A stretch of DNA of 64,000 bases, from NCBI GenBank assembly GCA_025963775.1, contig JAOQAD010000027.1, positions 1-64,000 on the forward strand. The letters run 5' to 3'. Of the stretch, positions 25,364-43,500 are shown in pieces (the first letter of the stretch is position 1; each line of letters opens with the position of its first letter). The position numbers and the translations under genes are program-made. The notes under the pieces were generated by a model. It was not told the origin of the DNA, made no database searches, and saw only the letters and a program-made list of their open reading frames with translations. The DNA is from Bacteroidota bacterium. Lineage in GTDB: Bacteria > Bacteroidota > Bacteroidia > 2-12-FULL-35-15.

Positions 25364-25460
25364 TTATTCCTGACCCGGAATCTCGTTATAAACATAAGGT
25401 GAAGGGAATCCTGCCAGCCGCAACATTTGAGAGAGATGCCGTGTCGAAGCACGGCATGAC
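25364..25460 (+). repeat. MITE-like element, left-truncated copy 2
   Basis: It lacks the first few bases but retains CCTGACCCGGAATCTCG, the CATAAGGTGAAGGGAATC spacer, and the right end GATGCCGTG...CACGGCATGAC. It lies 18 bases after lptD. In the gap to 25698 nothing other than this and copy 3 is seen. Confidence 0.7.
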
Positions 25461-25698: not shown

Positions 25699-26004
25699 AT
25701 GAACTTAAACAGAGCTTACGTTTATATCTTATCGAATAAAAATTTAATGGTTTTTTATATTGGTGTAACGAATGATCTTGAAAGAAGGATGCGTGAACAT
25801 AAGGAAGGTTCGGGATCAATTTTTACTCAACGATACAATGTAAATGTGCTGGTGTATTATGAGATCCACAACGATATCCGGCAGGCGATTAAACGGGAGA
25901 AACAACTGAAAGCATGGAAGCGGGATTGGAAAATAGAATTGATAAGATCAATGAATGCAGATATGATTGACCTTGCAAAAGACTGGTGTGAAGATGCATT
26001 GTAA
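25699..26004 (+). CDS. GIY-YIG nuclease domain protein, copy 1
   Basis: 101 residues from the ATG at 25699; longer upstream readings run through repeat DNA. AYVYIL and FYIGVTNDLERR are the GIY and YIG strands with the catalytic Arg, and AIKREKQLKAWKRDWK contains the conserved Glu and basic region. It is a single-domain member of the UPF0213/YhbQ-like group, predicted to nick or cut DNA. It is very similar along its full length to the protein at 43146-43460. It is flanked by direct copies of the palindromic element on both sides, and its own codons are AT-richer than those of neighbouring lptD. Confidence 0.85.
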   Translation: MNLNRAYVYILSNKNLMVFYIGVTNDLERRMREHKEGSGSIFTQRYNVNVLVYYEIHNDIRQAIKREKQLKAWKRDWKIELIRSMNADMIDLAKDWCEDAL

Positions 26005-40232: not shown

Positions 40233-40265
40233 TAAGCCCGGTAGAAATGCCGGGCTTATTTTTTG
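40233..40265 (+). terminator. Intrinsic terminator after lpdA
   Basis: TAAGCCCGG (40233-40241) pairs with CCGGGCTTA (40250-40258) around an 8-base loop, followed by TTATTTTTT. Confidence 0.8.
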
Positions 40266-40535
40266 TGCGCTGTCATTTCGAGTTCGACCGAAGGGAGAGT
40301 ATCGGGAAAGTGCGGAGGCTGGGTAACATATATACGAAGGTTGTAGTGTTTGGAATAAGATCCCTCGGGCAAGCTCGGGATGACAAACCAGTAAAAATGC
40401 CAGGATTACTTTTTTGCGCGCCGTCATTTCGAGTTCGACCAAAGAGAGAGTATCGAGAAAGCGCGGGGATAACGTAAATACGAAGGTTGCTGTGTTTGGA
40501 ATAAGATCCCTTCGCTACGTCGGGATGACAAATGC
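40266..40535. repeat. Two tandem copies of a composite dispersed repeat
   Basis: The unit begins GTCATTTCGAGTTCGACC, continues with GAGAGTATCG, and ends TGGAATAAGATCCC...GGGATGACAAA. Copies start near 40268 and 40421, a period of about 153 bp. The segment between them imitates the lpdA terminator tail (AATGCCAGGATTACTTTTTTG), so terminator sequence was duplicated along with the repeat. No gene present. Confidence 0.7.
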
Positions 40536-42975: not shown

Positions 42976-43028
42976 GTACGGATCGTGAATCTTGATCTTA
43001 TTTTCGGAGAAATATGATAATGAATAAC

Positions 43029-43075
43029 GTCATCCCGTGCCACGACACGGGATCTGTCAATCGTTTACCATATCC
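43029..43075 (+). repeat. Relic end of a GIY-YIG cassette
   Basis: Matches 43118-43160 for roughly 45 bases, including the terminal palindrome and the adjoining coding end. Read on the minus strand, it retains codons for Asp-Met-Val-Asn-Asp followed by TGA, matching the Asp-Phe-Val-Asn-Asp-stop end of the intact gene. Confidence 0.7.
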
Positions 43076-43117
43076 AAATAACCATTCTCATTACGGAGAG
43101 GATATTACAAATTTAAC

Positions 43118-43500
43118 GTCATCCCGTGCTCCGACACGGGATCTGTTAATCGTTTACGAAATCCGGAAGAGCCCAATCCTTTGCCAAGTCTGTCATTTCA
43201 GAATTCAGTGTTTTAATCAATTCCAGCTTCCAATCCCTTTTCCATTCCTTCAGCTGTTTCTCCCTTGCGATTGCCTGTTCAATGTTAGAATGGATCTCAT
43301 AATAAACCAATTCATTCACATTATACTTTTTTGTAAAAAGAGAGCCGTTACCTTGCCTGTGTTCCACAATTCTTCTTTCAAGATCATTAGTAACTCCTAT
43401 GTAGAGTACTGTCCTGTTTTTGTTTGATAAAATATAAACGTAGGCTTTATTAAGATTCATAATTCTATTTAACAGATCCCGTGTCGGAGCACGGGATGAC
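43118..43500. mobile_element. GIY-YIG nuclease cassette with 32-bp perfect terminal inverted repeats
   Basis: The terminal repeats are 43118-43149 and 43469-43500, starting GTCATCCCGTGCTCCGACAC and ending TTAA on the inner side. They are identical inverted copies, each itself containing a hairpin. The 383-bp interior is filled by one nuclease gene. The gene's stop codon lies inside the 43118 repeat, and its ATG is 8 bases inside the other repeat. A target-site duplication is not evident. Classification as mobile is inferred from structure and from many gene-less relatives in this window. Confidence 0.65.
43146..43460 (-). CDS. GIY-YIG nuclease domain protein, copy 2, inside cassette
   Basis: 104 residues. 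AYVYIL at 6-11 and YIGVTNDLERR at 20-30 form the GIY and YIG elements with the catalytic Arg. AREKQLKEWKRDWKLELI carries the conserved Glu near 67 and a basic helix for DNA contact. Nearly the entire protein is one nuclease domain, of the UPF0213 group, predicted to cut or nick DNA. It matches the 25699-26004 product at most positions. Translation starts 8 bases from a strong hairpin (the terminal repeat) and the TAA stop is part of the other repeat, so gene and element boundaries coincide. The repeat hairpin in the leader may limit expression. Confidence 0.87.
   Translation of the reverse strand: MNLNKAYVYILSNKNRTVLYIGVTNDLERRIVEHRQGNGSLFTKKYNVNELVYYEIHSNIEQAIAREKQLKEWKRDWKLELIKTLNSEMTDLAKDWALPDFVND

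Follow-up and report, generated by a model that had tools for sequence, protein, structure and literature searches.

A probable duplicated end unit beside a palindrome-flanked GIY-YIG nuclease gene, and small GIY-YIG nucleases as candidate enzymes of CGTC-type repeats

CGTC-tagged REPs are palindromes that carry a terminal CGTC, TGTC or CCTC tag, a stem 8-9 bp long whose first bases are complementary AT, a loop of 4-5 nt and an unpaired tail that is mostly CCA (Di Nocera et al. 2013, PMC3733652). They are reported there from five phyla, including Rickettsia, Neisseria and the rhizobia, and are apparently without a dedicated transposase. The palindrome considered here resembles them in its CGTC outer tag, in a stem that starts with AT (ATCCCGTG/CACGGGAT) and in its frequent occurrence as inverted pairs. 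It departs from that description by a loop of 6 nt and by a tail that is mostly CTG or CTC in the genome to which the window belongs (the window being the whole stretch of 64,000 nucleotides that was analysed), and on loop and tail it is filed as CGTC-like, outside the four CGTC-tagged REP families. A further difference is the presence of a GIY-YIG nuclease gene between the palindromes, the CGTC-tagged REPs being described in PMC3733652 with no transposase gene.

Several known systems share single properties with this arrangement. In REPtrons the gene of a small DNA-processing enzyme, the HUH tyrosine transposase RAYT (TnpA-REP), likewise lies between palindromes, many gene-less palindrome pairs (REPINs) occur elsewhere, and palindrome type and enzyme covary; the enzyme of the window is, by contrast, a GIY-YIG nuclease, unrelated to HUH transposases. 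The same catalytic domain is found in the GIY-YIG homing endonucleases of group I introns, and our working model is likewise a selfish nuclease whose cutting propagates the sequences on either side of its gene. Unlike the homing endonucleases, the window protein consists of a single domain of 104 amino acids too small to hold a DNA-binding domain of its own besides, and palindromes flank its gene. The closest solved sequences belong to the UPF0213 single-domain GIY-YIG proteins, which are of similar length (PDB 1zg2, E 5e-16; PDB 1ywl, E 3e-12).

The features of the locus are collected in Table 1. The neighbours of the cassette are a SpoIIE-domain gene and a gene for an RsmB/F-type methyltransferase, as identified by Pfam, and the stop codon of the nuclease sits within the repeat tail CTGTTAAT. 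The tag of the solo palindrome becomes CGTC once base 43028 is counted (43028-43031).

Table 1. Features of the palindrome-flanked nuclease locus, in window coordinates
Feature	Position	Strand	Remarks
CGGAG box	43005..43009	+	24 nt outside the solo palindrome
Solo palindrome GTCATCCCGTGCCACGACACGGGAT	43029..43053	+	stem 8 bp ATCCCGTG/CACGGGAT, loop 6 nt, GTC tag
Tail of the solo copy	43054..43075	+	CTGTCAAT (common repeat tail) + 14 nt, 12 of them as in the nuclease coding 3' end
CGGAG box	43094..43098	+	24 nt outside the gene-3'-side palindrome of the cassette
Palindrome on the 3' side (stop-codon side) of the nuclease gene	43118..43142	+	
Intact single-domain GIY-YIG nuclease gene	43146..43460	-	104 aa; PF01541 69.8 bits, cut-off 22.6
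Inverted palindrome 5' of the nuclease gene	43476..43500	-	closes the cassette 43118-43500

The match to PF01541 and the conserved residues place the gene product in the GIY-YIG superfamily as a predicted nuclease. An alignment of 19 family members (with L101 left out) shows Y9, Y20, G22, R30, H34 and E67 to be invariant; the invariant Tyr, Tyr, Arg and Glu are presumably the catalytic positions of GIY-YIG nucleases. A resemblance to the homing endonucleases is seen in TIGR01453, which is matched at E 1e-3 or better by 11 of the 19 members, with a best value of 1.4e-5. A reading of the gene as part of a defence system was rejected, PADLOC returning weak matches only (best E 0.0028). The genome contains nine GIY-YIG genes, only two of which lie within about 1.5 kb of a palindrome of the type studied. 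A second GIY-YIG gene of the window (25699-26004, plus strand) is 73% identical to the first, and palindromes lie near positions 25436, 26109 and 26236. The repeats around it are of a longer pair type with the palindrome GTCATGCCGTGCTTCGACACGGCAT, and this genome perhaps harbours, in that gene and its repeats, another system of nuclease and repeat.

The initial annotation had recognised a remnant of the nuclease coding end in about 15 bases beside the solo palindrome, and the remnant is borne out. Read on the minus strand, positions 43057-43074 give GAT ATG GTA AAC GAT TGA, against GAT TTC GTA AAC GAT TAA in the intact gene, so that the solo copy encodes Asp-Met-Val-Asn-Asp-stop (DMVND-stop) and the gene Asp-Phe-Val-Asn-Asp-stop (DFVND-stop). 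The extent of the similarity had been understated: the 22 bases that follow the solo palindrome (43054-43075) agree at 19 of 22 positions with bases 43143-43164, inside the gene-side palindrome of the intact cassette, and a repeat search of the window returns a repeat of 51 nt at 90% identity (43025-43075 against 43114-43164). Part of this similarity has no bearing on the gene. CTGTYAAT or a relative of it follows many of the 129 palindrome copies that were extracted, and the first eight matching bases are therefore uninformative.

The remaining 14 bases were compared with those of other copies in register with the palindrome. The palindrome family occupies 180 places in the genome, which is 65% complete, at no more than three mismatches, some of them counted on both strands; 97 are exact. 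The test set of 129 copies comprised all 97 exact ones and 32 others from the fetched stretches; 128 had enough flank, and the subtraction of the gene's own end (43118) and of the copy at 43029 leaves 126 comparators. Beyond CTGTYAAT, the copy at 43029 shares 12 of 14 positions with the gene end, whereas the best of the 126 others, two copies, reach 9 of 14. The random expectation for at least 12 of 14 is 3.2e-6 per copy and 4e-4 over the 129 copies. Over the full 22 bases, the other copies attain a maximum of 14 of 22. In the genome of the window the tail of gene codons thus stands out at 43029 only. A search of the whole genome for the long tail at no more than three mismatches returns 43047 and 43136 alone, the pattern having been built from these two.

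These figures bear on the possibility that the tail is simply one of the ordinary tails of this repeat family, with no relation to the gene. Such a reading draws on the many copies followed by CTGTYAAT or its relatives, on tails such as CTTATAAATGTTTGCAGTATCC that reach 14/22 by themselves, and on the free local alignment to the gene, where the score of 43054-43088 is equalled in 15 of 500 shuffles and that of the part beyond CTGTCAA in 60 of 500. Against it stands the in-register comparison, in which a 12/14 match faces a best of 9/14 among the other 126 at a chance of 4e-4 over all copies, and on which chance or an ordinary tail was rejected as the whole explanation. We regard an origin unrelated to the gene as very improbable. 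The strength of the case for a coding tail lies in the match being in phase with the palindrome, the free local alignment being weaker.

The same copy had been taken for the relic of a second GIY-YIG cassette; as the remains of a whole unit, it would have lost its middle and far end. This part of the earlier interpretation does not hold up well. The gene end is represented in the solo copy by only about 19-22 bases, and elsewhere in 42976-43117, the stretches that were tested outside the palindrome resemble the gene no better than shuffled sequences do. A whole second cassette would agree with the coding-tail match at 43054-43075, and the left flank of 43029 contains TGAATCTTGAT, which is like the gene start at 10 of 11 positions, with GCGAATCT at the same place in the relative G010; the TGAATCTTGAT match, however, is equalled in 201 of 500 shuffles, and two outer stretches tested likewise do not rise above shuffles.

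The geometry of the locus suggests tandem copies of one end unit. The copies at 43029 and 43118 have the same orientation and lie 89 bp apart. Positions 43000-43075 and 43089-43164 are identical at 55 of 76 positions, mostly in the palindrome and its tail; the outer part agrees at only 13 of 29, which counts against a duplication. The copy at 43029 is more readily explained as a duplicate of one end of the adjoining cassette than as the relic of a whole one: positions 43000-43075 would be a tandem duplicate of one end of the cassette 43118-43500, comprising the outer part, the palindrome and about 22 inner bases, and these inner bases would include the last five codons of the nuclease.

Comparison with relatives places this duplication in a wider history of the locus. 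G010 has a cassette at the same locus, with the same SpoIIE-domain and RsmB/F-type methyltransferase genes, in the opposite orientation. With the cassette's own ends counted, two end units lie 5' of the gene there and three lie 3' of it, so that three are extra. The extra unit on the 5' side terminates in ATGAATCTTA, the first codons of the gene, and is the sole extra unit with gene codons. This pattern points to a locus with a history of repeated end units, and the copy at 43029 fits such a history better than the loss of a whole second cassette. Since the end units of G010 carry a few codons only and so look like end duplications themselves, they also count against the remains of a whole second cassette, a reading that we consider unlikely. 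In G043 a cassette adjoins the same methyltransferase gene, and in G003 the SpoIIE-domain and methyltransferase neighbours meet without a cassette, as judged by eye.

Both the solo copy and the intact cassette have a CGGAG box at the same distance outside the palindrome (Table 1). Among the 129 copies of the genome, CGGAG stands at offset 24 in four and at offset 23 in one. By eye, it was found 23-25 nt outside the palindrome in the cassettes of G007, G010, G011 and G049 and was not seen at the two cassettes of G043. The loci noted for this nearly fixed distance among the relatives are L092, L093, L094 and L301. CGGAG fits CNNNG, which we take to be the cleavage motif of I-TevI. A role of the box as a cleavage site, an idea formed after the fact, was not retained.

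Among the 129 copies are 22 pairs spaced 54-58 bp, with 12 more spaced 78-80 bp, one of which is of another make. All 22 short pairs combine one inner end of CTG type (once CCG) with one of CTC, CCC or CTT type. By eye, the cassettes of relatives at L093, L094, L301, L302 and L305 follow a corresponding order, with CTG on the 5' side of the gene and CTC on its 3' side; the cassettes of the window and of G010 depart from the asymmetry of the short pairs, each of their two ends being CTG. The short pairs across the genome, of about 81 bp, would be the gene-less counterparts of the cassette. At five of five short-pair sites, no such palindrome (at no more than four mismatches) was found in the orthologous stretch of G010. 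This could be due to loss in G010, where the intergenic stretches are generally diverged.

Repeats of other kinds occur in the same intergenic surroundings. The site of G010 (L323) orthologous to the short pair at C38:46207 of the window genome holds a different repeat, GTCATGCTGAGCG..., as if several repeat families were reusing intergenic sites. In the window, positions 40259-40511, about 2.5 kb to the left of the solo palindrome region, contain another repeat family, GTCATTTCGAGTTCGACC...GAGAGTATC, in two copies with 89% identity over 57 nt and a spacing of 151. Repeats of the GCTCCGGAGGAGC or GCCCCGGAGGGGC type, unlike the palindrome studied, lie beside or just inside the ends of two of the three Y1 transposase genes of the genome (L330 and L331, on C38 and C36).

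Homologues of the nuclease are present in 182 of 296 Bacteroidota genomes at E 1e-10, and a scan of genomes of named species, from which the best 80 loci were kept, extends over many phyla. Flanks were examined by comparing 200 bp on each side of the gene, together with 30 bp inside it, as inverted repeats. Of 120 loci taken, three were without a nuclease ORF match and one was dropped for its short flanks; the resulting 116 include near-identical ones, such as L222 and L223. An inverted-flank score of at least 20 is reached by 74/116 nuclease genes, against 74/1441 control ORFs of the same loci and 11/204 size-matched controls; 42 of the 116 nuclease genes fall below the threshold. Direct-repeat flank scores of at least 34 are found in 34/116 nuclease genes and 16/1441 controls, and 86 of 116 pass one threshold or the other. 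The enrichment in direct repeats indicates that some of the loci have pairs or arrays of palindromes on both sides of the gene. The location of the stop codon in a repeat arm was discarded as a special trait, its frequency being 33/74 among the nuclease genes and 31/74 among the controls above the same threshold.

The arms differ by host, yet often follow one plan, with GTC outward, then the palindrome, then ATCT or ATCCA gene-ward. The tag GTC[AG][TC] is present in 64 of 81 upstream arms with a score of at least 18, against 27 of 129 control arms. Five records from the plasmid collection score 35-78, and four of them come from species or genera named for CGTC repeats in PMC3733652. Four annotated plasmid loci score 35-78, whereas of 57 annotated control genes 3 score at least 20, the top control being an IS4 transposase. 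The pairing of gene and palindrome is wider than the initial annotation supposed.

Within this set we counted the other repeat copies that carry codons of the gene, using the fetched stretch of each nuclease locus and the window as a positive control. At least 12 nt of the coding 3' end accompany another repeat copy in 2 of 116 loci, and at least 12 nt of the 5' end in 3 of 116; with the limit lowered to 9 nt, the counts are 3 and 4 of 116, respectively. The earlier statement that gene end and repeat travel together is sound insofar as gene and palindromes act as one unit; as a rule for the coding ends it is ruled out by the 2/116 and 3/116.

Among the hosts that PMC3733652 names, Azospirillum lipoferum, Sinorhizobium meliloti, Novosphingobium aromaticivorans and Neisseria have records in which CGTC-type palindromes flank the nuclease gene. 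The architecture varies between hosts. Novosphingobium, like Rhizobium sp. CIAT894, has single inverted copies; in Azospirillum and Sinorhizobium each side bears copies of either orientation, in the latter with CCTC tags; the Neisseria locus has several palindrome copies; and the loci of Bradyrhizobium and Micavibrio, hosts also named in that paper, have inverted arms of CGTC type. On plasmid AZO_p3 of Azospirillum lipoferum 4B (L325, 9989-10282), the nuclease gene is located between sufB and sufC, with a palindrome pair on each side. No paper tying GIY-YIG genes to REP palindromes was found in the titles or abstract openings among the matches listed by a literature search that lacked preprints and most subscription journals.

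The type of palindrome covaries with the protein. When 46 loci, in seven palindrome classes drawn by the authors, are mapped on the protein tree (17 of 63 palindromes being unclassed and left out), the class changes 12 times, against a mean of 31.0 in shuffled assignments, none of 200 of which was as low. Across all 63 loci the Mantel correlation is 0.25 (rho), a value reached by none of 2000 permutations. Taken class by class, clustering as tight was obtained in 79 of 500 shuffles for class B, in 4 of 500 for class G and in 0 of 500 for the other five. The phylum label also changes 12 times on the same tree, which, together with the weak classes B and G, indicates that shared ancestry explains part of the pattern. 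Class CTGAAC is distributed over Bacteroidota, Alphaproteobacteria, Gracilibacteria, Marinimicrobia and Thermotogota, and class CC[CT]GCG over Bacteroidota, Alphaproteobacteria, Cloacimonadota and Margulisiibacteriota.

A similar association is seen within the genus, where all 7 genomes whose nuclease shows 70% identity or more contain the palindrome, as do 5 of the 29 others (p 9e-5), the 70% limit having been set after the results were seen. The genomes G003, G042 and G048 have 43, 34 and 19 palindromes, respectively, without a nuclease at least 70% identical, G003 possessing one at 57%. The repeat can accordingly persist alone or be moved otherwise.

Such genomes lend some weight to the main rival view, with the nuclease gene as a passenger, in which palindromes insert or recombine beside small genes and another enzyme, for instance a Y1 transposase, moves them. 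The window genome does contain three Y1 transposase genes, palindromes occur in some genomes without the cognate nuclease, and some nuclease genes stand between palindrome pairs or arrays instead of two single inverted palindromes. Against it, none of the three Y1 genes has the palindrome in the fetched stretch of about 1.5 kb on each side (one contig ends 47 nt past the gene), and they score 14, 9 and 10 for inverted flanks; with none of them flanked, in a genome 65% complete, a Y1/RAYT transposase of the same genome finds no support as the enzyme of the palindrome. Moreover, size-matched control genes are rarely flanked (the 11/204 given above), and the palindrome classes, some of which are shared between phyla, cluster on the tree of the nucleases. 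A passenger role is, on balance, a tentative possibility and rather doubtful.

We infer instead that the nuclease is a candidate for the enzyme that moves the palindromes. On the simplest and most likely account, it would recognise or cut its cognate palindrome, or else act some fixed distance away from it. Repair of the break would then copy palindrome units to new sites or nearby ones, and on occasion the cassette in full. Tandem duplication would sometimes affect the end units beside the gene, a few codons being taken along. It is probable, in our judgement, that 43000-43075 is such a tandem end duplicate and that a nuclease acting at its cognate palindrome spreads the repeats. We also lean, if only slightly, towards the more general proposition that the dedicated enzymes so far missing for CGTC-type REPs are, in bacteria of many phyla, small GIY-YIG nucleases of a single domain. 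They would define a second kind of REPtron, one without an HUH enzyme: every lineage of the nuclease would spread a palindrome of its own, and the short pairs would be gene-less derivatives. The duplicated end in the window shows how a cassette can shed repeat units bearing a few of its own codons. With the nuclease often flanked by CGTC-type palindromes and the palindrome classes clustering on its tree, the question of the transposase of these repeats becomes directly testable.
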